Below, in pieces: positions 3,644-29,812 of a DNA stretch of 33,611 nt. Numbering within the stretch: position 1 is the stretch's first letter; every line of letters begins with the position of its first letter. Both the position numbers and the translations under genes were made by a program. This DNA comes from Clostridia bacterium. Its GTDB lineage: Bacteria; Bacillota; Clostridia; Christensenellales; Borkfalkiaceae. Location: NCBI GenBank assembly GCA_017626135.1, contig JAGAJI010000013.1:1-33611 (forward strand), given 5' to 3'. The notes beneath the pieces are model-generated. The model had not been told where the DNA came from. It ran no database searches and saw nothing but the letters and a program-made list of their open reading frames with translations.

Positions 3644-4924
3644 CTATTTCTTGTTGCAGGTAAACTCGGTCGACTTCGCGGCGTTCGGTTCTCTGCCCAC
3701 TTCCGTATTATCCTCGCGGCGATTGCGCAGCTCGGGCACGGGCGAGGGCGCAACCTGAAAGCGATAATCCGCACCCCTTCTGCGAATAAACTCCTCGATG
3801 ACGTTATGCGAAGGCACGATCTCCGTCGTGGAATTGATCTGCGCCTGAATACGGAAGAACTCGCTATCGACAGGCAGGCTTTCCACCCGCACGTACTCCT
3901 CTTTCTTCGAAGTGAACTGCACGGTATTCCCCAAAACATTGCGCACGTACTCAATATTCTCGTGCAGAGAAATGGGCGCAGGGAAGTCTCCGCAGGGAAT
4001 CACTTCCTGCCACTCCTTCCCCTCATATTTTTTCAAAAGCTCCGCCGCCTTGTGCAGATGATTGATTTCCATCTCCAGATTCTCCTCCCAGAGGGATTTG
4101 ACGTAGCGGTCGGTCTCCGTCACGTAGCACGACCAGTACAGATAACATTCGCAATACTCGTGCCAAAGGAGCATTTCAAGCCACGTGGCGTTGGGATCCA
4201 TGAGGGACTCGTACTGCGTGACGTGTTCCTCCTCCACCAAGGCAATTTCCTGATAGAGCTTCCGCCCCATCTCCGAGCAGGCAAACGGCGTGACGTTCAT
4301 ATAATAATTCATCGTCTGCTGTTCCGCCGCCGTAATGATCATCGTGGAAAGCACCGTCTGCACGTCCGATTTTTTGGCGTTGATACCGCGTTTCACGTTG
4401 TCCTTGGGGAAGCGCAGATGGGAAATGGTCGGGCGACCGGGCATAATTTCCGTATACCGTCCCACCAACCACTCGGCGGCGACGCCTTGCTCCATTTCGA
4501 GCAAATTCGCATAGCGATACAGATGATCGAAATCCTCCAACAGGGCGAAATCAAGCGCCCGTTTCACGTCGCAATCGACTTCCCGTTTTGCAAGCTCGGC
4601 AGTCAGATCGACGGCGAGTTGCTCGTAGCCGATCGTATGCTCCAACACCGTTTCGTTGGCGGGTTTTAATAGACCGATTTTGAGCTGCTGTTGCTTTTCC
4701 TGATACCGCGCAAGCGCTAAATCTCGCCGCAGATCGTTGTCGTCTACGTGGCGGGCGAATTGATGAGAAAACCAGTTCGCCTCGAATTCCGTGCCGTTCA
4801 TCAAGATGATACGGGTTTTGGTATACGGGTCGACTTCGCGCTTGTCGTAGGCTTTGGGATAGAGTTCCTTCCAGTTTTGCAAGGTGTTCTCGATCCGTCC
4901 GGGTTTTTCTAAAAATGGATTCAT
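3644..4924 (-). CDS. Ferritin-like (possible di-iron) protein of unknown function
   Basis: A 426-residue soluble, helix-rich protein without a signal peptide that I do not recognise as a named enzyme. It carries several acidic/histidine pairs of the kind that bind two metals in four-helix ferritin-like bundles: ETVLEH (E95/H96), LLEDFDH (E130/H134), VEEEH (E231/H234), WHEY (E256) and MEINHLH (E286/H289). The helices between them are long and amphipathic. A cluster of Cys, Tyr and Trp (EYCECYLYWSCY) lies in the third bundle helix. The C-terminal 100 residues look less ordered and end in a polar tail. The start has AAAAGGAG eight bases upstream. It is transcribed alone. A role in oxygen or peroxide handling is plausible for an anaerobe but is inference. 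The metal ligands are assigned by pattern only. Confidence 0.5.
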   Translation of the reverse strand: MNPFLEKPGRIENTLQNWKELYPKAYDKREVDPYTKTRIILMNGTEFEANWFSHQFARHVDDNDLRRDLALARYQEKQQQLKIGLLKPANETVLEHTIGYEQLAVDLTAELAKREVDCDVKRALDFALLEDFDHLYRYANLLEMEQGVAAEWLVGRYTEIMPGRPTISHLRFPKDNVKRGINAKKSDVQTVLSTMIITAAEQQTMNYYMNVTPFACSEMGRKLYQEIALVEEEHVTQYESLMDPNATWLEMLLWHEYCECYLYWSCYVTETDRYVKSLWEENLEMEINHLHKAAELLKKYEGKEWQEVIPCGDFPAPISLHENIEYVRNVLGNTVQFTSKKEEYVRVESLPVDSEFFRIQAQINSTTEIVPSHNVIEEFIRRRGADYRFQVAPSPVPELRNRREDNTEVGREPNAAKSTEFTCNKK

Positions 4925-5064: not shown

Positions 5065-5715
5065 TTATACCGTACCGAAAAGCACGGAGCGAAGGAGCGT
5101 CGCCGTCTTTTCTTCGCCGAGCTCCTCTTTGAGCACGTCCGTCGCCGCGCCGCCGTGGGAGAGCAAGCCTTCCACGTAGTAGGCAGTCTTTTTTACCTTC
5201 TCTTCACGCGCACAGGAAGGCGCGTCCATCTGTAAGTATGCTTGCAGATATTCCTCGACGAAGGCATCGAAATTATGCTTTTCCTTCCCCCTTTTCGCGA
5301 TGGACTGCGGCAAACGGATATCGTCGTACCAGTATTCTTTCGCCCCGTCTTTGAGGACGCGTTCAGGCAGACGGGCGTACTTTTGCTTGACCGTTTCCAC
5401 TTTGGAAACGTCCGTGATCGGTTGTACGCAGGTATCGTATAACTCCATGATCAAGGTATCGTTCCCCATCGCGTAGATGCGATCGTACGAAAGCAGCGGC
5501 AAATCTTTTTGCTCGGGACAAATCACGAGGGTGTCCATTTTTATGAGCCCGAAAAAGCCCTTCGCCGTCATCACGGACACGTGCCCGAGCCCCTCCGCGG
5601 CGTACGCGAAACAGGAAAAGGTCATGCCCCTTGCCTGAAAACGAGCAAATTCTCCCACGCTTTTTTCCGTCAAAGGATAACGCTTTGCGATTTCTTCGAT
5701 GATTTTTTCGACCAT
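5065..5715 (-). CDS. HY2-like (ferredoxin-dependent bilin reductase-like) protein
   Basis: Soluble protein of 216 residues, last gene of the TetR-controlled operon, four bases after the preceding membrane-protein gene with GGAG inside that gene's end. The pattern resembles ferredoxin-dependent bilin reductases and red chlorophyll catabolite reductase. A central strand pair has DLPLLSYDR (71-79) followed by a conserved aspartate-ended strand DTLIMELYDT, and the C-terminus reads YYVEGLLSHGGAATDVLKEELG then LLRSVLFG, matching the end of FDBR proteins, where a Tyr-containing helix, GPA-like turn, FG and LF recur. By family knowledge such enzymes reduce linear tetrapyrroles with electrons from ferredoxin and no cofactor. 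Catalytic residues cannot be assigned by eye, the similarity is distant, and a different substrate is possible. The protein is slightly shorter than typical FDBRs (about 230-260). Confidence 0.5.
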   Translation of the reverse strand: MVEKIIEEIAKRYPLTEKSVGEFARFQARGMTFSCFAYAAEGLGHVSVMTAKGFFGLIKMDTLVICPEQKDLPLLSYDRIYAMGNDTLIMELYDTCVQPITDVSKVETVKQKYARLPERVLKDGAKEYWYDDIRLPQSIAKRGKEKHNFDAFVEEYLQAYLQMDAPSCAREEKVKKTAYYVEGLLSHGGAATDVLKEELGEEKTATLLRSVLFGTV

Positions 5716-5719
5716 TTGA

Positions 5720-6331
5720 TTATAGCTCCAGTTTGGAAAGTCCCGCTTTTCTCAAACACAAGGCACCCGCAAGGAAACAGCCCTGCCCGACGATATTGAC
5801 GCTTTGCGCGATCCAGTTCATCGCCGCCTCGGCAAAGTCCTGCGAGGAGAGATATCCCATACAAAGCGAGCACAGGAAGGACACGATGAAAAGCACCATC
5901 ACCCGATTCTTTTTGAGTTTTTTGCAAAGAATACAAAATACCGTATCCATAACGCCGAGCCCCGCCACCATCAAGCCGACGAACACGAACGTGCCCGTGA
6001 AGAGCGCGGGCGCCGCCGTACTTAACGCCACTTTCTTTTTCGGAACGAGCATGAGCAACATACCCATACCCGCAAATAAAAATCCGAGGGATTGCACCGG
6101 GAAAAAGATTGCGCTCAGGGGTTGAAAATCGCAAACGTTCGCCGCATAGAGCAACTTATACGTCGCTTTCAACGCCCCCGCGCAGGTGACGTCGATCACG
6201 CCCGTTGCGAACAGCGCAAACGCCGCCGCACTCATTTTGTTATGGAAGGCGCGGAGAAAAATAATCGCCGCAATTGCAAAGCAGACGACGGGGATATAAT
6301 CCGTCAACGCCATAGGAATTGAAAAATCCAT
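5720..6331 (-). CDS. Small integral membrane protein, unknown family
   Basis: Protein of 203 residues with about six hydrophobic helices, at roughly 10-25, 33-53, 71-94, 105-130, 142-160 and 170-192, joined by short basic loops (MLVPKKKVAL, ILCKKLKKNR). I do not recognise a named family; the even spacing suggests an internal duplication of three helices or a YhhN-like fold, which is only a guess. AAGGAG lies seven bases before the ATG. It sits sixth in the TetR-controlled operon, 30 bp after the restored end of the hydrolase and 4 bp before the HY2-like gene, so a membrane partner or transporter for the operon's product is a reasonable inference. Several cysteines (IDVTCAGAL, VFCILCKKL, FLCSLCMG) lie in or near the helices. 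Confidence 0.7.
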   Translation of the reverse strand: MDFSIPMALTDYIPVVCFAIAAIIFLRAFHNKMSAAAFALFATGVIDVTCAGALKATYKLLYAANVCDFQPLSAIFFPVQSLGFLFAGMGMLLMLVPKKKVALSTAAPALFTGTFVFVGLMVAGLGVMDTVFCILCKKLKKNRVMVLFIVSFLCSLCMGYLSSQDFAEAAMNWIAQSVNIVGQGCFLAGALCLRKAGLSKLEL

Positions 6332-6482
6332 ACTAATTCTCCTTATCTTTCTGTAAACCCTTTATTTGTGGAAGATAAATTTTATCGTTTCATCGATGGC
6401 AATCGTTTGCTGTTCCGTCCTCGAAATGGTTGCGGACGCGTCGCCTTTTTGCTCGCCGTAGTCGCCGAATTGCGCGTGATTG

Positions 6483-6489
6483 CCCCCCC
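6483..6489 (-). repeat. Homopolymer run (7 G in the coding strand) at the frameshift
   Basis: Seven C on the plus strand, seven G in the hydrolase coding strand. Six G give the conserved GGNHAQFGDYG reading; seven do not. It is a possible slippage site. Confidence 0.9.
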
Positions 6490-6814
6490 TCGATGACCAC
6501 GACGTTTTCGGTGTAGTCAATCTTCTCGGCAACGCTCGTATTCAACGAGCCGTAGACCGTCAACGTCCTTTCCAAGGGGAAATCTCCGTTCGGGTAAGCG
6601 CCGTACAAAATCAAGCCCTCGATCGTCTCGGCATGAGCGGACGCGTAGCTCGACGCCATCGCTCCCCCTAAGGAATGTCCTGCGATATACCAACGTTTCA
6701 CGTCGGGATTGCGCGCAATAATGTCACCTGCAATATTCATTCCAAAGAAGGCAAGATGAAACGGCATCTCTACCAAATAGCAACTCAAACCCGCCTCGCA
6801 AAGACCGTTCATAA

Positions 6815-6833
6815 GGGGCAGGTATGCGTTGAA
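6815..6833 (-). repeat. Interspersed 19-mer, copy A (exact, inside the hydrolase gene)
   Basis: Exact copy of TTCAACGCATACCTGCCCC on the minus strand, read in frame as FNAYLP in the alpha/beta hydrolase. See the finding on the recurring word. Confidence 0.9.
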
Positions 6834-7075
6834 CTCCACTTTTGCCCCCGGATAGAAGATGAGCGCCGTATCCGAATTTTCCTTGGAGGAGAGCAAATAT
6901 CCCTCCTCCGTTCTGTGCACGTGCTCCTCTTTGGCAACGACAAGCGCCGTTTCGTCCGCGCGATAATAATCGGAAACGTACAGAAAGAATGCTCCCGTAC
7001 AACCAAAGACGACCGCCATTACGGCGCATACGGCAACGGTTATTTTACGCCATATTGATTTTTGGGTAGCCATGT

Positions 7076-7885
7076 TCAGTTCTTCTTATTCAAATGATAG
7101 AGAGGCACCAAAGGCAAAATGATGGGCGTCTTGTTTGCGTACTCATTGTAGGCAGGATCGTCACCGTAACGTTCCATCTGACGCTTTTCCAGTCTCTGCG
7201 CGCCGTTGAACATAATGAACACGATCGCGATATAGGCAACGATTGCAATCACCCATTGCCACCAAGAATTATAGGCGGTGACGCCGCTCACGAAAACGCC
7301 CGTCCAGAAAATGATTTCGCCCAAGTAGTTGGGACAACGAACGATCTTATAAAGACCCTGCGTGGCTACCATGGACGGGTTGAGTTTCTTCTGCGCCGAT
7401 TTTTGCATATCGGCAAGCGCTTCCAGCGCCAAGCCGCCGACGGAGATTACGATGCCGACGACGGGCACGATCCAGTCGCCGACGCCCTCGTTGCAATAGC
7501 GGTACAGCATGGGGCTTACCTGCATCGTGTAGAGCACGGAAACGAATACCCAGATGGTAACGAGCACGAAAACGGGCATCTTCTTGTCGTTCCCCGTCGC
7601 TTCTTTCAGCGTCTTGCGGTAGGCTGCGTTTTTGATTTCACGCACGAGCAAAAATCCCGAAAGCCGAGCTCCATACGCCACGAACAACGCCGCTTGCAAA
7701 ATCACGAGCCACCAAAGCTCCCCTGCCCAACCGTTGGCAAACGCCATCACGAGCACGGCGATCCCGCCGCCCGCTACGGCAAAGCCGTAACCGATGGAGA
7801 GGAAGTAGACGAATTTATAGAACCCGACTGCGCAAAGCAGGGCGCAAACGCCGAGCAAAATCGCCAAACAAATCCATTCGTTCAT
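7076..7885 (-). CDS. DUF1295 membrane protein (steroid 5-alpha-reductase/ICMT-like fold)
   Basis: Integral membrane protein of 269 residues with about seven hydrophobic helices. The C-terminal half holds the family signature: LVATQGLYKIVRCPNYLGE (close to LW.ysRHPnYfge in related proteins), a WTGVF segment and RYGDDPAYNEYANKTPIILPLVP before the last helix. DUF1295 belongs to the clan of steroid 5-alpha reductases and isoprenylcysteine methyltransferases, which bind NADPH or AdoMet and act on lipophilic substrates; the actual reaction is unknown. The open frame extends 94 codons upstream, but the ATG at 7885 has AAGGAGG six bases upstream, and the extra N-terminus is Arg/Ser/Pro-rich shadow over the preceding gene. 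It starts one base after the previous stop and ends two bases before the hydrolase start, so it is tightly coupled. Confidence 0.88.
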   Translation of the reverse strand: MNEWICLAILLGVCALLCAVGFYKFVYFLSIGYGFAVAGGGIAVLVMAFANGWAGELWWLVILQAALFVAYGARLSGFLLVREIKNAAYRKTLKEATGNDKKMPVFVLVTIWVFVSVLYTMQVSPMLYRYCNEGVGDWIVPVVGIVISVGGLALEALADMQKSAQKKLNPSMVATQGLYKIVRCPNYLGEIIFWTGVFVSGVTAYNSWWQWVIAIVAYIAIVFIMFNGAQRLEKRQMERYGDDPAYNEYANKTPIILPLVPLYHLNKKN

Positions 7886-7886
7886 A

Positions 7887-8738
7887 TTACGCCTCCTTCG
7901 TAAAGCTCTGCTTGATATATTCGGCAAAGCTCCTGTCGCCGTATACGGTATCGCCGACCATCTCTTCGGTGAGCGTCCATTTGGAGAAGCGCAAGATTGC
8001 CTCTTTGCCGTTCTTTTTGAGTTTGTTGACGAAGGCGAGCACGTCGAACAGGAAGGCGGGCGCGCGTTTGATGACGGATTCTTTCCCCGCCGCCGCAAAG
8101 CAGAGGTTGGCGATCTCTTCGTAGGAATACGTTTCCTTCCCGCCCACGTCGTACGTCTTGTTTTCATCCATCACGTGCTTGACGATAAATTCCGCAAAAT
8201 CCTCGGTGGCAATGACGTTGGCGTGCACGGGTTTCTTGCCGAGCAGGGTGACTTCTCCCTTTTCGATCATGGGTTTGAACACCTTGACGATGTCGTAGAA
8301 ATACCCCGTAGGGCGGTGGATCACCCAAGTAAGTCCGCTCTTTTTGAGTTCTTCTTCGAAGAGGTATTTGGCGTGGAGCATGGGCACCTTAGGCGCCTTA
8401 TCCGCCTTGATGACGGAGACGTAACTGAAATGCTTTACGCCTGCCGCCTTTGCCTCGTTCAAAAGATTCAGATTGCCCTGATAATCGATTTGATAGTTCG
8501 TCACGGTGGCGGAAGTTTTGGTGAGCCCGACCGTCGTAATCACAGCGTCCGCCCCATCGCAAAGTCCTTGGAGGGTGTCGGGGTTGGTCACGTCGATCTT
8601 TTTGAAGGTATAGTTCCCCGTCAAGCCGAGATCTCTTTCCATCATATCCGCGGCAACCACTTCGTGTCCCTCTTTCAAAAGTGCCTTCAAGATATCGGCG
8701 CCAAGGTTTCCGTATGCGCCTGCAAGTACGATTTTCAT
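7887..8738 (-). CDS. NmrA-like atypical SDR, NAD(P)-binding protein
   Basis: Rossmann-fold protein of 283 residues of the atypical (NmrA/SDR_a5) group. The N-terminal motif GAYGNLG (GxxGxxG, residues 7-13) binds NAD(P); the acidic residue after strand two (AADMMERD) and YVSVIKADKAP, HAKYLFEEELKKSGLTWVIHRPTGYFYD match this family. The usual catalytic YxxxK is present only as HAKYLFEEEL, so it may be a reductase with altered chemistry or a regulator. It is third in the TetR-controlled operon: 21 bp after the flavoprotein gene and one base before DUF1295. AAGGAGG lies eight bases upstream of the ATG. The whole length matches the family. Confidence 0.85.
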   Translation of the reverse strand: MKIVLAGAYGNLGADILKALLKEGHEVVAADMMERDLGLTGNYTFKKIDVTNPDTLQGLCDGADAVITTVGLTKTSATVTNYQIDYQGNLNLLNEAKAAGVKHFSYVSVIKADKAPKVPMLHAKYLFEEELKKSGLTWVIHRPTGYFYDIVKVFKPMIEKGEVTLLGKKPVHANVIATEDFAEFIVKHVMDENKTYDVGGKETYSYEEIANLCFAAAGKESVIKRAPAFLFDVLAFVNKLKKNGKEAILRFSKWTLTEEMVGDTVYGDRSFAEYIKQSFTKEA

Positions 8739-8759: not shown

Positions 8760-9686
8760 TTATTTTTTATTCTTTTCTTTTGCGCGTTTGTCGTTGATGA
8801 TCTTCATGTGTTCCTCGGTGACGAGCTCCACGTTGTTTTCCTTCGCCCAGCTCACGCAACCCTTCAAAACGATGGGCAGGAATACTCTGGGTACGCCGAG
8901 AATGGTTTTGAGCGCCTCGTCCGTGAACTTGACTTTATCGTCCGCTCTGTCCGCCGCATAGCGCACCGATTCCAAACTTGCCTGACGGACTTGCAACAAC
9001 TCCGCTTTCATGTGACGCTTTTTGTGATACCAGAAGTTTTTGCTGTCACGATAGCCGTAGTCCACGGGCAGGTTGGGGAAATCGCAAGCGCGCACGCCGT
9101 TGATGATGGCGTCCGAATATTTTTTCTTCATGAGGATCTTGTCGACTTTCAAGATGAAATGCGCGCCGAATTTACTCGTGATCCCGTTGAAATCGTGGTA
9201 GGGTCCCTCGTAGCCGTTGAGCTCGCCGGGCATATCCTTGTCTGCACCGTCCAACTCGCGTACCCACGTGCACTCAATCACCTGAATGGCGTCGGTAAGT
9301 ACCTGCGGACGCTTTTCCCCCGTCTCCTCTTCGATCATGCTCGTTTCCAGACGGAAGTTGCATTTGGGCATCTTGTCGGAGGGCTTGTCGCCGGGCCAGG
9401 AAAGCTTGACCGCTTCCTTGAAATATTTCGGTTCGTCCGAAATGAAGTTGAGGGAACATTTGCCGTTGCGCAAGATGTTCTGTGCCGTATTCGAAGAGTT
9501 ACGACAGGACAACAGCATTGCGTAATAGTCCTTACCCGCCACGTAGTAGGGCTGAATCAGGGAATACGGTCCCAAGGTGGTCGTGCCGTCCTCGCAAAGC
9601 GTACCGATGACGACGGTGGGCATCGGGAAGAACAACGACGTTTGATAGAAGTTGTCTACGACGCGCAAATTTTCAAAACTGCTCAT
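8760..9686 (-). CDS. Flavin reductase-like (FMN split barrel) protein with PCP_red-like C-terminal tail
   Basis: Protein of 308 residues. Residues 15-200 form a flavin-reductase/FMN-binding split barrel: FFPMPTVVIGTLCEDGTTTLGPYS, then the CRNSSNTAQNILRNGKCSLNFI segment where these proteins bind FMN phosphate. Residues about 256-300 (FTDEALKTILGVPRVFLP through NNVELVTEEHM) resemble PCP_red (PF08369), the short C-terminal domain of light-independent protochlorophyllide reductase ChlB, with its W/FTxEA, IPxF and E(I/L)T positions. The match is by eye and the domain is short. It starts in an ATGA overlap with tetR, so its expression follows the repressor. Chemistry: probable FMN-dependent reduction of an unknown substrate. 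AAGGAG lies ten bases before the ATG. Confidence 0.8.
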   Translation of the reverse strand: MSSFENLRVVDNFYQTSLFFPMPTVVIGTLCEDGTTTLGPYSLIQPYYVAGKDYYAMLLSCRNSSNTAQNILRNGKCSLNFISDEPKYFKEAVKLSWPGDKPSDKMPKCNFRLETSMIEEETGEKRPQVLTDAIQVIECTWVRELDGADKDMPGELNGYEGPYHDFNGITSKFGAHFILKVDKILMKKKYSDAIINGVRACDFPNLPVDYGYRDSKNFWYHKKRHMKAELLQVRQASLESVRYAADRADDKVKFTDEALKTILGVPRVFLPIVLKGCVSWAKENNVELVTEEHMKIINDKRAKEKNKK

Positions 9687-10207
9687 AGTGATATATCTCC
9701 TTCATTTTTATTGATCAATTTATAAAACAGGGGTTGTAAAGTCTCGAAGGGAACTCCCTCGACGATCCATCTCAAAATACTTTCCGCCAAAAATTCCGAG
9801 AGGAACTGCTCCTCGCAAACGGGGAAAATCACCTCGGCGAGCTGGGAGCGCAACGGTTTATGGAAGTCCGCGGCAGAAGAATTGTAGCTCGCCTTCGCGC
9901 CCTCGTCACAAAAGAGCGTTTGATAGGCGGTGAGAAATTCTCCCAGACAGGTATAGACGAAGGACAGACGTTCCATTCCGACGGAAGAACACCCTCTCAT
10001 CTTTTCCAGACAGTACCGCCAGTCCTCCAACATGACGGAAGCGACGAGGGTGTTTTTCGAGGGGAAATAGTTATACGCCGTTCCTACGCCCAGTCCGCAG
10101 GCGTTGGCTACCGAGCGCATCGTCAGCTTCCCGTACCCCTCCTCATTTAATAGTCTTTTCGCTTCCTGCAATAACAGTTCGCGTGCGTTCTCAATCTTTT
10201 TCGGCAT
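9683..10207 (-). CDS. TetR family transcriptional regulator, first gene of the operon
   Basis: Repressor of 174 residues. The N-terminal helix-turn-helix spans about residues 10-55, with LTMRSVANACGLGVGTAYNYFPSKNTL as the recognition region, typical of TetR. The C-terminal ligand domain (56-174) has no family-specific signature; it ends in an acidic tail. The upstream in-frame extension to 10273 overlaps the promoter, and the ATG at 10207 has AAAGGAG five bases upstream, so 10207 is the start. It overlaps the flavoprotein gene by ATGA. A perfect 8-2-8 palindrome starts at the predicted transcription start, the classic arrangement for autorepression. It probably senses a substrate or product of the operon; the ligand cannot be inferred. 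Confidence 0.92.
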   Translation of the reverse strand: MPKKIENARELLLQEAKRLLNEEGYGKLTMRSVANACGLGVGTAYNYFPSKNTLVASVMLEDWRYCLEKMRGCSSVGMERLSFVYTCLGEFLTAYQTLFCDEGAKASYNSSAADFHKPLRSQLAEVIFPVCEEQFLSEFLAESILRWIVEGVPFETLQPLFYKLINKNEGDISL

Positions 10208-10220
10208 ACTTACTCCTTTT

Positions 10221-10238
10221 ATATGAACGTGTTCATAT
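10221..10238. promoter_or_regulatory. Probable TetR operator
   Basis: Palindrome ATATGAAC-GT-GTTCATAT, perfect over 8-bp arms. It begins at the predicted +1 of the operon promoter (about 10238) and lies 14 bp upstream of the tetR ATG. Bound repressor would block transcription. Confidence 0.8.
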
Positions 10239-10244
10239 GCACAT

Positions 10245-10273
10245 ATTATACTATACGTTTTCCATTTTGTCAA
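10245..10273 (-). promoter_or_regulatory. Consensus sigma-A promoter of the TetR operon
   Basis: Minus strand TTGACA (10268-10273), 17 bp, TATAAT (10245-10250): a perfect consensus, which fits a gene set kept off mainly by its repressor. Confidence 0.92.
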
Positions 10274-22266: not shown

Positions 22267-22303
22267 AAAGAAACAGCGGATCTTCTATCCGTTGTTTCTT
22301 TTT
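22267..22303. terminator. Bidirectional terminator between PFOR and DUF1071 gene
   Basis: AAAGAAACAGCGGAT / ATCCGTTGTTTCTTT, a 15-bp stem (one G-U pair) with loop CTTCT, T-runs on both strands. The stop codon of the converging DUF1071 gene lies inside the hairpin. Confidence 0.9.
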
Positions 22304-22869
22304 GCCGTACTTTTTTTGCGTTTCTTTTTCTGTTCTTCCAGAACGGTGCGGACGGCTTCGCACTCCTCTGCGCCCCAGTCGGGGAAGGCAATCCCCAACT
22401 GCCGCTCGTACCACTTCACCGTCTTCGGCACGTCCTGCACGCCCCATTTGTCTACGAGCTCCTGCTCGGTGATGGGCTCGAAATTTTTGGGCACGTCGGG
22501 TAGATCCTCGCCGGCATAGATATAGAGGCCCAACCCGAACATGGCGAGATTTTTGGTCAGGCAACGCATGATGGACTTGTTGATCTCCGTCATCTTGGGC
22601 TGTAAAATGGTGTTGTTGCGCATATCCATAACGGGCAGCCACATCTCGTAGGTGCGTTCCCCCGCCGTCACCTGCGTTTGCACCATGTAGCCCATTTTTT
22701 CGTTCCCCGAACAAAAAGTTCCGTCAAACTCATTGACCTTGTAGTCGGCATCGGGGTAGATTTTTTTGAACTCCGCCCAGGCAGGTGCCCACGAAAGGTA
22801 GGTGAGTCCACCCTTTTTCTCTGTTTTGTCGTTGACGTTGATGGCGTATATTTCCTCGAACTTCTCCAT
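22285..22869 (-). CDS. DUF1071 protein, phage Sak-type single-strand annealing recombinase
   Basis: Protein of 194 residues that matches DUF1071, the family of the lactococcal phage Sak annealing proteins. Signatures are GGLTYLSWAPAWAEFKKIYPDA (21-42), MWLPVMDMRNN (76-86) and TEINKSIMRCLTKNLAMFGLGLYIYAGEDL (94-123). By family knowledge it anneals complementary single strands in recombination. The C-terminus ends in a Lys/Arg tail. The ATG at 22869 has AAAGGAG five bases upstream; an earlier in-frame Met is rejected for lack of a site. No other phage gene is adjacent, so it is either a remnant beside the tRNA gene or a domesticated host recombinase. I found no clear promoter for it. Confidence 0.88.
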   Translation of the reverse strand: MEKFEEIYAINVNDKTEKKGGLTYLSWAPAWAEFKKIYPDADYKVNEFDGTFCSGNEKMGYMVQTQVTAGERTYEMWLPVMDMRNNTILQPKMTEINKSIMRCLTKNLAMFGLGLYIYAGEDLPDVPKNFEPITEQELVDKWGVQDVPKTVKWYERQLGIAFPDWGAEECEAVRTVLEEQKKKRKKSTAKRNNG

Positions 22870-22944
22870 AAATACTCCTTTCCTTATATAGTGTAACAAT
22901 TTTGAAGGAAATTATACGAGTTGAGAAAATCTAAGAAAAAACAA

Positions 22945-25018: not shown

Positions 25019-28000
25019 TCAATCTTTCTTTTTCTTCGCAAGCACCCAAAGCGCGATCGCCGTCGGGAAGAATATGCAGCCCGTCGAAACCGTTCCGAGA
25101 CACCCCCGCAGATTGAACTTGGGCTTCTCCGTCGAAGAGCCGTCCTCTTCAAGGGAGGTATACACCGCCGTGACGATCGTATCTCCCAACCCAACGTCGG
25201 AGGGCGTTTTATCCCAGACGCCCGAATAGCCGACTTTGAGCGGCACTTCGGGGAAACGGAGCTCCTCGATCGTCTCCACCGTAAACCGAATGGGGAGCAC
25301 CTCGACCGCCACGCCCTTGAACGTGATCGTATACACGATCGCCGTATAGACGGGCGCCAGCGTGACATCTTCCAGATCGCACGTCGCAAAGTCCCGATCC
25401 CAACGCCCCTCGTACCCCGCTTTCACCGGCACGGCAGGGAGTTCTATCCCGCTCTTATTCTCGACGGTATAGGAAATAGGAGCGATTCCCTCGCAGGCAA
25501 AGGAAAGGGTATAGACGATCGGCGTATAGAGCGCAGTCACCGTCGCATCTTCCAAGCCGAGCGCAGACAAATCCCTATCCCACGTGCCCGTATACCCCTT
25601 CCGCTCAGGAAGCGCAGGCATATGCACCTGTCCGATCGTTTCGATCGTGAACGCGATGGGATCGACCCCTTCGACGCCGACGAAGGATATGACGTAGAGA
25701 ACGGGCGTGTAGACGACGGTCAACGTCGTATCTTCCAAGTTAAGCTCCGAAGGCGTTTTGCTCCACGTGCCCACGTACCCGATCCGCTCGGGTACTTCGG
25801 GGAAGACGACGGCGTCCTTCGACTCCACCGTAAAGGTCACGGGTTCTATCTCGCAGTCCGCCTCAAAGGTAACCGTGTAAACAAGGAGGGTGTAGATTGC
25901 CTCCACGCGCACGTTCTCCAAACCGAGCTCGGACGGGGTTTTATCCCAGACCGCCGTATATCCTGCCCGCGCAGGCACTTCGGGGAAGGTCAGGTAGGGC
26001 AACGTCTCGATCGTAAAGACGATTCGGCATTCCCACTCAACCCCTGAAAAGGTGACGACGTACTCAATCGCCGTATAGACGAGGAAGACGGTCGTATCCG
26101 CCAAGGGAATATCGGCGGGCGTCTTGTCCCACGCGCCCGTATATCCCTCCCGCTTAGGGATTTTCGGGAACTCGATCTCCCCGATCGTTTCCACGGTAAA
26201 CGTGATCGGTTCCGCCCCTTCCAAACCGACGAAGGTCAACGTGTACTCGATCGCCGTATACACGGCGGTCACCGTCGTATCGGCAAGCGTAATTTCCGAG
26301 GGCAATTTGTTCCACGCGCCCGTATAACCCGCCCGCTCGGGCACCTCGGGGAAAGTCAGTTGCGAAAGGGTTTCCACCGTGAACGAAACGGGTTCGAGCC
26401 CCTCTGCGCCCGCGAAGGTAAGCGTGTAGACGATCGGCTGGTAAATCGCCGTGACCGTCGTATTTTCCAACCCGATCTCCGACAGCTTTTTATCCCATCT
26501 CGCCGTATATCCCTCCCGTTCGGGCAACGCGGGCAGGCAGACCTCGTCGAGCGTTTCCACCGTGAACGGGATATCCTCGATCCCCTCCACGCCGAGGAAG
26601 GTGATCCTATATTCCACGGGCGTGTAGATCGCCGTCAACGTGGCGTCCTCCAACCCCAACTCGGACACCGTCTTATCCCATTTCGCCGTGTAGCCGATCT
26701 TGCTCGGAACCTCGGGGAGTTGCAACGAAGTCAGCGTTTCCACCGTAAAGGGCAAGGGCGCTATTCCCTCCGCGCCTGCGAAGGTGAGCGTATAGACGAG
26801 GGGTGTTTTGACGACGGTATAGACTCGTCCGCTCTCCAAAGGCAACGTCTCGGGGACGGGTTCCGCCCAACCGTAGGTGTACGCCTTGAGATTCTCGGGG
26901 ATCAAAAACCGCGCGAACAACGCCTGCACGTAGGAAGGGTCCTCCCCCTCTTTTGCCGTGTAGGTGAGTACTTGCTCCACGCCCGCCCCGTCGAGCACGG
27001 TCATCGTGTATTCCGTCCACGACCACGCCGCGTAGAGCGTGAGGTTGTTCGTAGGCATATACGCGGGGGCACTCTCGCCGTCCGCCCTCTTCCACCCCGA
27101 AAAGGTTCTGCCGCGCATGGGCTCGGGGTCGCTCAAAACGAGTTCCTCTCCCCAAGGGAGGACGTATTCTTTCGTCGTCTCGATCTCCCGTTCGGGATCG
27201 CCGACGACCTTCAGTTTGTAGGACACCTTCTGCGTGGTAACCGCAAAGACGCAATCTTCCGCCTCCAACGCATCGGGCAGGGGCGACGACCACGCGTACG
27301 TGTACCGTTCATTATTACAAAGAAGGAGAAAATCCCGCAAATCCTGCAACACGGTCTTCGCCGTTTCCAACGTGTAGTTCTTCTTGCCAAGAATTTCCAT
27401 ATCCGTCTGTACGGTGGCAACGTACGTCTCCAACTCTCGGTTGGTATACGCGCGTACGTCGTTTGTGGGCATATACGTCGGCGCAGTCGCGCCCCGTTCG
27501 TCTATCCACCCCAAAAACCGATACCACGGCTTTTTCTCCACCGTTGGATAGGGAATAAGTTCGCCCCACGCCAACTTTTTCGTGAACGCGACGTTCGTCC
27601 CATCCTCGTCGTAGAAATACACGACGTAGCACACTTTGCGTTCCGCATATTGCGGAAGGAGCGCCACGTCGTCCGTGACCGTATCCCGTTCAAAATCCCA
27701 CAAACAAAATTGATCGCCCTGCAAATAATACCAGCCCGTAAATTCATATTCGTATTCTGCCGTCGCAGGTTTTTCGGGCGTGGGTGGTTGGGTCAGATAG
27801 GCACCCTCTTCCACGGTTTGCGTCTCGCCGTCGAAGGAAACGACGTACACCGTTTTCGTCGTGTAACACGCCTTTAAGATCGTATCCCGCGTGACTTTGT
27901 CGCGGCTGAAATCCCAGGCGACAAGCCCGTCTTCCGACCAACAGAGAAAACGATAGACGACGTGCCCGTCCTGCAATTTCTGCGGATCGCCGGGGATTTG

Positions 28001-29812
28001 TGCAAGATGGATCAACGCGCCTTCGTATACCTGCACGCTCGTGGGCGCAACGCCGTTGTCCCCGTCGAACGTGACGGTGTATTTCGTCTTTTCCACTTCG
28101 AGAAAGTCGGGCTCCAAGGTAAGCGCGCTGAAAACGGCGTCGTTCTCAAAATCCCAGTATACCTTTTCCCCTTCCCGATAGTACGTCCAACCGAGGAATT
28201 GATAGGTGTGCGACTCCGTCTCCTCCTTCGTCGGGGTCTCGGAAGGTTGAGAGAGCTTTTCCCCTGCCAACACACGGATTTCCACGCCGTTAATCTTCAC
28301 TATATATTTTGCAATCACCGTATATTTTGCGATCAGACTTACGTCTCCTTCAATCGTGCTTTCAAAGTCGAACTGGGTACCCACGTCTGCGTTGAACCAA
28401 CCTGCAAATAGATATACGCAAGTTTCCTCGTCCGCCTTTTCGGGGTCGGCAGGCAACGCCTCTGCGGCGATTTTGCTCCCCTCGTACACCTCGATTTTCG
28501 TGCTTTCTTCCCCGTTTGCCGGATCGAAAACGACGGTATATTTCGTCTTTTCCACTTCGCAAAAATCGGGCTCCAACGTGAGGTCGCCGTTCACAACGTC
28601 CTTTTCAAAATCCCAGTATACCTTCTCCCCCACGTCGTCGAGGTAGTACCAACCCACGAATTCGTAGTAATGGGTGTCCGTCTCCGCCTTCGTCGGCGGC
28701 TGGGGCGCGGAAAGCTTTTCGCCTTCGAGGACTCTCTGCGTTTCCCCGTCTATCGTCACCGAATATTTGGGCGTGCGCAGGTATTTCGCCTCGATCGTCT
28801 GACTGCCCGTAATCGGGGCGGAAACGTCAAACGGGGTATCCATGTCTGCGTTGAACCAACCTACGAAGGCGTACTTCGCCTCGTCGGTCTCCGCTTTTTC
28901 GGGGTCGGCGGGCAACTGTGCCGACGGGATAATTCCGCCGTAATAAACCTCGATATACGTAACCGCTTCGCCGTTCTTCGGATCGAAGGTGAGCGCACAT
29001 TTCGTCTTTTCCACTGCACGGAATTCGGACGTCAGGACGAGATCGCCGTTCACGACGTCGTTCTCAAAATCCCAGTATACCTTCTCCCCCTCGCCGTCGA
29101 GGTAGTACCAACCCACGAATTCGTAGTAATGGGTGTCCGTCTCCGCCTTCGTCGGCGTTTCGGGACGAGTCGCAAGCCCACCTTCCTCCACTTCCTGCGC
29201 GACTCCGTCCACGGTAACCGTGTACTTCGTCAATTCCGCCTGCGAGGGCGTAGCGACGGCGCAGCCGCTCAGAAGGTAGGTACAGGGGTCGTCTGCATTA
29301 TATTCGTATACGAAAGGGCCGCTGATTTTAATCTCCCGCACTTCCGCCGCAGGAAGATACGCCTCGGGGATCATGACGTCGATTACGTTGGCGGAGCTAC
29401 CTGCGTCATAGTCGAACGTGACGCTGATGGGCGCGCAACCGTAATTTTTTATGTACAGATCGGAAGTCTCCAACGCCGGGGAGCCGTTTGCCTCGTACTC
29501 GCTTTTGTGCTCCGCAACCGTCTTTCCGTTGACGGTGATTTGCGCAAGCCAGTCCACCTGTTCAATGTTGAGGCTCAATATCCCCCACCCGATTTCGTCT
29601 TCCTGAACGAGAAAGCGGGTCCTGTGCGTATCCTGATAGCGAGAAAACTGTGCGAACTCCGTACAAACGGCGTCCGAAAGGGAGATTTCCACGTAAGAAC
29701 TTGCGGCGTTCGCTCTTATATCGCTTTCCGCGTCATGGAATAACGATACCCCCGTATAAACAAAAATTGCGGACAAAACGATTGCCGCAATTTTACCCTT
29801 CTTTACTTTCAT
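25019..29812 (-). CDS. Large repeat-containing surface protein (InlB/Flg_new-type repeats)
   Basis: 1,597 residues. The N-terminus (1-37) is a signal or anchor helix after MKVKKGK; an unassigned domain runs to about 190. Next come alternating beta-grasp repeats of the Listeria-Bacteroides (Flg_new/InlB B) kind, with YTVTFD.NG, Y.F.GWY and KVYWDFENDVV units, to about 740, then a central part with APTYMPTN (twice) and further GW repeats. Nine repeats of about 61 residues follow (25157-26803), each with YTLTF, FTVETL, FPEVPERAGYTG.WDKTPSELGL and TAVYT. The end reads GCLGTVSTGC, a hydrophobic helix and KKKKD, with no LPXTG, so it is anchored by the membrane or by a Gly-Cys signal. Likely an adhesin or cell-envelope protein. 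AAAGGAG lies nine bases upstream of the ATG. Confidence 0.9.
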   Translation of the reverse strand: MKVKKGKIAAIVLSAIFVYTGVSLFHDAESDIRANAASSYVEISLSDAVCTEFAQFSRYQDTHRTRFLVQEDEIGWGILSLNIEQVDWLAQITVNGKTVAEHKSEYEANGSPALETSDLYIKNYGCAPISVTFDYDAGSSANVIDVMIPEAYLPAAEVREIKISGPFVYEYNADDPCTYLLSGCAVATPSQAELTKYTVTVDGVAQEVEEGGLATRPETPTKAETDTHYYEFVGWYYLDGEGEKVYWDFENDVVNGDLVLTSEFRAVEKTKCALTFDPKNGEAVTYIEVYYGGIIPSAQLPADPEKAETDEAKYAFVGWFNADMDTPFDVSAPITGSQTIEAKYLRTPKYSVTIDGETQRVLEGEKLSAPQPPTKAETDTHYYEFVGWYYLDDVGEKVYWDFEKDVVNGDLTLEPDFCEVEKTKYTVVFDPANGEESTKIEVYEGSKIAAEALPADPEKADEETCVYLFAGWFNADVGTQFDFESTIEGDVSLIAKYTVIAKYIVKINGVEIRVLAGEKLSQPSETPTKEETESHTYQFLGWTYYREGEKVYWDFENDAVFSALTLEPDFLEVEKTKYTVTFDGDNGVAPTSVQVYEGALIHLAQIPGDPQKLQDGHVVYRFLCWSEDGLVAWDFSRDKVTRDTILKACYTTKTVYVVSFDGETQTVEEGAYLTQPPTPEKPATAEYEYEFTGWYYLQGDQFCLWDFERDTVTDDVALLPQYAERKVCYVVYFYDEDGTNVAFTKKLAWGELIPYPTVEKKPWYRFLGWIDERGATAPTYMPTNDVRAYTNRELETYVATVQTDMEILGKKNYTLETAKTVLQDLRDFLLLCNNERYTYAWSSPLPDALEAEDCVFAVTTQKVSYKLKVVGDPEREIETTKEYVLPWGEELVLSDPEPMRGRTFSGWKRADGESAPAYMPTNNLTLYAAWSWTEYTMTVLDGAGVEQVLTYTAKEGEDPSYVQALFARFLIPENLKAYTYGWAEPVPETLPLESGRVYTVVKTPLVYTLTFAGAEGIAPLPFTVETLTSLQLPEVPSKIGYTAKWDKTVSELGLEDATLTAIYTPVEYRITFLGVEGIEDIPFTVETLDEVCLPALPEREGYTARWDKKLSEIGLENTTVTAIYQPIVYTLTFAGAEGLEPVSFTVETLSQLTFPEVPERAGYTGAWNKLPSEITLADTTVTAVYTAIEYTLTFVGLEGAEPITFTVETIGEIEFPKIPKREGYTGAWDKTPADIPLADTTVFLVYTAIEYVVTFSGVEWECRIVFTIETLPYLTFPEVPARAGYTAVWDKTPSELGLENVRVEAIYTLLVYTVTFEADCEIEPVTFTVESKDAVVFPEVPERIGYVGTWSKTPSELNLEDTTLTVVYTPVLYVISFVGVEGVDPIAFTIETIGQVHMPALPERKGYTGTWDRDLSALGLEDATVTALYTPIVYTLSFACEGIAPISYTVENKSGIELPAVPVKAGYEGRWDRDFATCDLEDVTLAPVYTAIVYTITFKGVAVEVLPIRFTVETIEELRFPEVPLKVGYSGVWDKTPSDVGLGDTIVTAVYTSLEEDGSSTEKPKFNLRGCLGTVSTGCIFFPTAIALWVLAKKKKD
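25157..26803 (-). repeat. Nine tandem repeats of about 183 bp in the surface protein gene
   Basis: Nine units of about 61 codons. They are divergent at DNA level, so the array is old compared with the 63-base duplication further upstream in the gene. Units 5 and 8 are the most divergent by eye. Confidence 0.88.
28636..29157 (-). repeat. 63-bp identical direct repeat within the surface protein gene
   Basis: 28636-28698 and 29095-29157 are identical for 63 bases, encoding PTKAETDTHYYEFVGWYYLD in both. Neighbouring codons differ, which suggests recent recombination or gene conversion between repeats. Confidence 0.88.

Follow-up and report, generated by a model that had tools for sequence, protein, structure and literature searches.

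We identified, in the genome of a non-photosynthetic Clostridia bacterium, a gene for a protein of 216 residues with the fold of ferredoxin-dependent bilin reductases (FDBRs), lying in an operon of reductases headed by a TetR-family regulator. The explanation that accounts best for the evidence as a whole, and to which we give an even chance, is that the protein might be a ferredoxin-fed reductase of a tetrapyrrole from the diet or from bile. The source genome (1.47 Mb, 79 contigs) is 94% complete, and the window, that is, the whole stretch of 33,611 nucleotides analysed here, is one of its contigs (C70). The open reading frame, which the initial annotation had placed at 5065–5715 without a strand, is intact on the minus strand, together with the sequence elements quoted from it: DLPLLSYD at residues 71–78, the next strand ending in ELYD (91–94), and in the C-terminal part Tyr179-Tyr180 within a helix, GG at 188–189, LG at 199–200, and LF at 212–213. 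By sequence comparison, the frame is a genuine gene beyond chance because relatives of 38–62% identity with open frames exist within the same taxonomic order and 80 more loci occur in GTDB genomes.

Fold, sequence kinship and active site

We modelled the protein with AlphaFold together with 57 relatives (pLDDT 95.8, pTM 0.92). The model consists of one helix followed by seven antiparallel strands and a helical block. The initial annotation had staked its assignment on the alpha/beta/alpha sandwich of FDBRs, and the model clearly has it, with Z-scores of 18–20. A Foldseek search of the PDB returned PcyA, PebA, PebB, and HY2 as the best matches (E-values from 2e-9 to 3e-7) and PebS at about 1e-5. 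All matches with E <1e-3 were FDBRs except two chains of the chloroplast FtsHi complex; as these two belong to a motor complex, the match of the modelled fold is no proof of chemistry. With VIA-align, the Z-scores for PebB (19.9), PebA (19.7), PcyA (19.4), and HY2 (19.2) were tied, followed by 16.4–17.1 for red chlorophyll catabolite reductase (RCCR), 16 for phage PebS, 10–15 for the oxygen-dependent coproporphyrinogen oxidase HemF, and below 5 for unrelated folds. Among viral models, the top match was a protein without a name and the second an annotated phage PcyA. The model places the protein in the FDBR/RCCR/HemF fold superfamily, with FDBRs as its structurally closest relatives. The label "HY2-like" given at first thus fits the FDBR-type fold but is too narrow, given the tie among PebB, PebA, PcyA, and HY2 and the separation of the family from phage PebS and PcyA described below. 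The suggested kinship to RCCR likewise extends to the shared fold, yet RCCR, which acts on a linear chlorophyll catabolite, is more distant than FDBRs, with 9% identity and no match of the window protein to Pfam RCC_reductase (PF06405) at E-values up to 10. HemF, which requires O2, shares the overall fold at a still greater distance.

The evidence from sequence is weaker than that from structure, but it agrees, and together they bear out the initial annotation, which had rightly seen a protein of the FDBR/RCCR type as unexpected in a genome without photosynthesis. The Pfam family of FDBRs (PF05996, Fe_bilin_red) matched residues 30–213 of the window protein with an E-value of 0.035 and 14.2 bits, below the gathering score of 31 bits, and matched 25 of the 57 relatives with a best E-value of 1.7e-7. 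The phage "ferredoxin oxidoreductase" profile PHROG_7278 aligned with residues 2–214 (E 7e-4). Profile–profile comparison by hhalign was collinear with phage FDBR profiles, with P-values from 6.5e-5 (phage PcyA) to 5.6e-3; the probabilities were low (6–64%) because the profiles are shallow. Profile searching of PDB sequences retrieved GtPebB only at an E-value of 0.1, and with a deeper alignment no FDBR. A PF05996 search of the source genome gave nothing but a short stretch of 15.3 bits on another contig, which was judged to be due to chance. The protein shares with FDBRs the fold (Z-scores of 16–20), the length, and a collinear sequence, whereas it is only 14–19% identical to the phage enzymes. 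In a maximum-likelihood tree of the family with phage FDBRs, all family members form one clade (98/99 support) that is separate from the PebS and PcyA of phages.

The active site combines one conserved catalytic residue with several replacements. When 17 family members, the distant paralogues L015 and L016 among them, are aligned jointly with six FDBRs from phages (PebS/PebA-like and PcyA), Asp78 is the only invariant column, and it is Asp in all 81 family sequences. In PebS of P-SSM2, which served as the reference, Asp105 is part of CFGMD105L and Asp206 part of ELD206P, a numbering confirmed by the solved mutants D105N and D206N. By this alignment, Asp78 is the FDBR catalytic Asp105. The C-terminal pattern of a Tyr helix, GG-A, LG, and LF, which had been taken as matching FDBRs and RCCR, is present in its elements, but FDBRs do not share GG, which sits at the second catalytic residue, Asp206, of PebS. 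Gly189 occupies this site; Asp193, one helical turn (four residues) further on, is found in 71/81 sequences. The His88 site of PcyA (His or Asn in FDBRs) is Asp61 in 79 of the 81 sequences of the core set, while the more distant members carry other residues there; Met49 takes the place of Glu76. The loss of the second Asp and the exchange of Glu76 and His88 speak against the preferred explanation. However, the pre-2 and pre-3 groups of pre-PcyA proteins keep Asp105 and are active without Glu76 and His88 (PMC10151467), so the altered site is no argument against activity; Asp at position 88 is absent among the variants given in that paper. The distant paralogues L015, L016, and L017 (23–27% identity), which three genomes of a single genus carry as second copies, also keep the catalytic Asp and adjoin another hydrolase, L016 and L017 in addition a related membrane protein.

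The operon and its predicted operator

The genes from the regulator to the FDBR-like gene are all on the minus strand, with intergenic distances between a 4-bp overlap and 58 bp. The first gene encodes the TetR-family regulator (9683–10207; PF00440, E 1e-12), starting at 10207 after AAAGGAG. It is followed by a flavin-reductase-like protein of 308 residues (8760–9686; PF01613, E 8.5e-6), of the split-barrel type by family, which scores just below the cut-off in the window and above it in the closest relative, L018. This protein is highly conserved across loci, and its single-sequence structure prediction reached a pLDDT of 34. A protochlorophyllide reductase (PCP_red) domain considered for its C-terminus found no support, with no Pfam match at E-values up to 10 and no PF08369 in G000. 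Next are an atypical short-chain reductase of the NmrA/NAD_binding_10 type by family match (7887–8738), with triphenylmethane reductase and SimC7 among its solved relatives, and a DUF1295/steroid-5-alpha-reductase-like membrane reductase (7076–7885; PF06966, E 1.2e-26), which starts at 7885 as judged from its ribosome-binding site and matches the solved bacterial SRD5A 7c83 (E 1.7e-4). An alpha/beta hydrolase (Abhydrolase_5; 6390–7073) has a frameshift near its end relative to L018, in which the hydrolase and the membrane protein are one ORF of 447 residues. The hydrophobic, multi-spanning membrane protein itself (TM6; 5720–6331, 203 residues), which matches no trusted family, precedes the FDBR-like gene with a gap of 4 bp. 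Downstream, a protein of 426 residues (3644–4924, minus strand) that matches no trusted family in Pfam, NCBIfam, or PHROG follows after 140 bp, which makes its membership in the operon doubtful; it adjoins the FDBR-like gene only in L018 and gave a weak Rubrerythrin hint (E 0.18).

About 60 loci share the operon of TetR, flavin-reductase-like, NmrA, SRD5A-like DUF1295, membrane, and FDBR-like proteins, joined in some loci by the hydrolase. Over the 80 loci, many of which end at contig edges, the same order was counted for DUF1295 (60), the membrane protein (60), NmrA (52), the flavin-reductase-like protein (43), and TetR (38). In rumen Bacteroidales, DUF1295 lies directly upstream of the FDBR-like gene, and the two overlap by a few codons in L090–L096. 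In Butyrivibrio, several Lachnospiraceae, and some others, the FDBR-like gene occurs without the operon, so the enzyme can work without these partners. The cultured carrier Pseudobutyrivibrio ruminis retains the part NmrA-DUF1295-TM6-FDBR. We identified neither a bilin transporter nor a bilin-binding partner, which, like the copies outside the operon in several Lachnospiraceae, counts against the preferred explanation.

A sigma-70-type promoter, TTGACA-17-TATAAT, perfect in 12/12 positions (10245–10273, minus strand), precedes the TetR gene, and the palindrome TATGAACACGTTCATA (10222–10237, minus strand), a predicted TetR operator, lies between its −10 box and the TetR start. The palindrome core TGAAC-NN-GTTCA occurs 43 times with up to two mismatches in 0.99 Mb of the relatives' loci, compared with four times in one shuffle, and 37 of the 43 copies are located at the operon's first gene. 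In genome G373, which carries the FDBR-like gene on a different contig, the operator precedes a TetR-NmrA pair. Most simply, these sequences would be read as an operon that represses itself through a common operator, to which TetR presumably binds. Such an operator might offer, with a simple inducer assay, a route to the true substrate.

Elsewhere in the window, a Sak-like single-strand annealing protein (22285–22899; PHROG_659, E 6e-53) is a phage-type gene in a chromosomal context, and a protein of 1597 residues (25019–29812), with an N-terminal signal-like stretch and many TFxVExxxxxxxPxxPxRxGYTxxWDKxxSE repeats, is probably a surface protein.

Carriers and the source of the pigment

The gene is patchily distributed. 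Relatives with open frames were found in 5 of the 100 nearest genomes; 11 of 396 genomes sampled from the order, including the source genome, had matches (two of the ten others were also in the nearest-100 set), and in a phylum-wide sample of 398 genomes the source genome was the only one with a match, the other 397 having no relatives. The 80 further loci, collected by a degenerate-pattern scan of GTDB genomes with close relatives as the query alignment, belong to Clostridia and rumen Bacteroidales. Their record titles name a ruminant host in 48 cases, carry RUG (rumen) labels in seven, refer to cultured Butyrivibrio/Pseudobutyrivibrio in five, and give no source in 20; none names a human source. 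This bias towards herbivore guts is suggestive only because ruminant metagenome-assembled genomes are abundant among GTDB Clostridia and the counts have no background. In the tree, the sequences from rumen Bacteroidales cluster tightly within the otherwise Bacillota family, which suggests a transfer of the FDBR-like gene between phyla in the rumen. We found no relatives on phages, plasmids, or viral contigs.

Heme oxygenase is absent from all 14 carrier genomes examined, with control matches in 3/14, and no HutW-type anaerobilin synthase scored above the cut-off in the carriers. Matches to HutW below the cut-off occurred in all genomes, but they also occurred in all control genomes and were therefore read as HemW-like. 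Without these two enzymes, any bilin used would probably be exogenous. By its sequences, the family is a separate, well-supported, and new clade of the FDBR superfamily in anaerobic gut bacteria that have no known bilin-making route; in this, its carriers differ from those of known FDBRs.

The statement of the initial annotation that such enzymes are known mainly from phototrophs and phages is outdated, since a 2023 publication described pre-PcyA FDBRs from heterotrophic bacteria (PMC10151467). Those proteins resemble the present family in occurring in non-photosynthetic heterotrophs and, for pre-2 and pre-3, in their active site. However, they come from other taxa, the main text naming Chloroflexi, proteobacteria, Acidobacteria, Planctomycetes, and others with no mention of Firmicutes or Clostridia, and their genes are linked to those for globin, V4R, and Fe-S proteins and in some cases to heme oxygenase (PMC10151467). 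No globin, V4R, Fe-S, or heme oxygenase gene was seen among the scanned operon neighbours here, which are reductases, the hydrolase, the membrane protein, and TetR. Among the open-access papers searched, we found none joining bilin reductases with the rumen or Butyrivibrio and none reporting the clade itself.

Candidate substrates

In the explanation that we prefer, a flat tetrapyrrole, which could be a bilin or a derivative of chlorophyll with an open or closed ring, would bind between the central beta sheet and the C-terminal helices, and the invariant Asp78 would protonate it, as Asp105 does in PcyA and PebS. Reduced ferredoxin, which fermenters bearing pyruvate:ferredoxin oxidoreductase (PFOR) make in quantity, would, we infer, supply single electrons. 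The PFOR to which the initial annotation had pointed is present in the window (TIGR02176, 1685 bits), but it lies 13 kb from the FDBR-like gene and is a housekeeping gene, so ferredoxin is no more than plausible as the donor. The pigment would be imported from the diet or bile, not made, expression would come from the TetR-repressed operon, and the flavin-reductase-like, NmrA, SRD5A-like, and membrane proteins might further reduce the same compound or its products.

The pigment could more narrowly be of the biliverdin/bilirubin type, the protein being a ferredoxin-dependent counterpart of the gut bilirubin reductases BilR/BilV that acts on biliverdin from herbivore bile, which we regard as rather unlikely in this specific form. 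Biliverdin is the substrate of FDBRs, carriers without heme oxygenase would need a host source for it, and the operon encodes members of the NmrA/atypical short-chain reductase and split-barrel families, which include the bilin reductases BLVRB/ChuY and Rv2074. Herbivores excrete biliverdin and bilirubin in variable amounts (PMC13252198), and an ecological role similar to that of BilR/BilV, the reduction of bile pigments by gut anaerobes, would apply, although BilR/BilV are Old-Yellow-Enzyme flavoproteins of an unrelated fold (PMC10769871, PMC13252198). Yet BilR acts directly on biliverdin (PMC13252198), leaving a second enzyme unneeded, and all vertebrates deliver bile pigment, which fits poorly with the lack of human sources among the 80 titles, a count made without a background control.

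Because herbivores also eat chlorophyll, bile and chlorophyll substrates are not distinguished here. A chlorophyll-derived tetrapyrrole of the pheophorbide or phyllobilin type, reduced during microbial chlorophyll breakdown in herbivore guts, is the other narrow form of the preferred explanation and seems improbable when taken singly. It would suit the ruminant hosts and RUG labels in the titles, the fold common to the plant enzyme RCCR, the hydrolase in the operon of some loci and, weakly, an O-demethylase link in one clade that could suit a methyl ester. The missing background for the host counts and the lack of a Pfam match to RCCR weigh against it.

This O-demethylase link comes from L043, L058, and L077, loci of one clade in which a further operator copy (at L043:13006, L058:4455, and L077:11548) immediately precedes the gene for a methyltransferase of the URO-D family, followed by pterin-binding and B12-binding proteins, a set of the corrinoid O-demethylase type as judged by its families. 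If the additional operator reflects regulation and not chance, methoxy groups may be present on the substrate or on a companion compound, which keeps a non-tetrapyrrole substrate in play; an operator at such a cluster is as compatible with a methoxylated plant compound as with a tetrapyrrole. The fold might accordingly have been recruited to a flat compound such as a methoxylated plant polyphenol or a steroid-like molecule that is reduced by the whole operon, a doubtful proposal that gains from the resemblance of the operon partners to steroid 5-alpha-reductase and NmrA reductases and from an active site unlike those of known FDBRs. To our knowledge, all characterised enzymes of the FDBR/RCCR/HemF fold act on tetrapyrroles. 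This common chemistry, also described in PMC10151467, argues against such a recruitment, as does the strict conservation of the catalytic Asp. A non-catalytic role in tetrapyrrole binding or structure (sensor, chaperone, or sequestration), to which the lost second Asp and the chloroplast FtsHi-complex subunit of the same fold might point, is very unlikely because Asp78, Glu91, Trp129, and Lys173 are invariant in 57/57 aligned members and the gene is surrounded by reductases.

Returning to the preferred explanation, we tentatively propose, with the balance somewhat against it, a strictly anaerobic gut pathway, widespread among rumen and hindgut Clostridia and passed to rumen Bacteroidales, in which the new FDBR clade, encoded in a reductase operon under TetR control, would reduce tetrapyrroles of the diet or bile. 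The known enzymes of this fold have been described as ultimately oxygen-dependent, which is the basis for placing the origin of FDBRs after oxygenic photosynthesis (PMC10151467). A large clade in genomes of obligate fermenters without heme oxygenase makes this argument directly testable, and the anaerobic pathway, if true, would provide the first member of the fold working in organisms that neither synthesise bilins nor use oxygen. Should a chlorophyll or bile pigment prove to be the substrate, the operon would provide genes behind the microbial breakdown of tetrapyrroles in grazing animals, a process tied to the photosensitisation of livestock by phylloerythrin.
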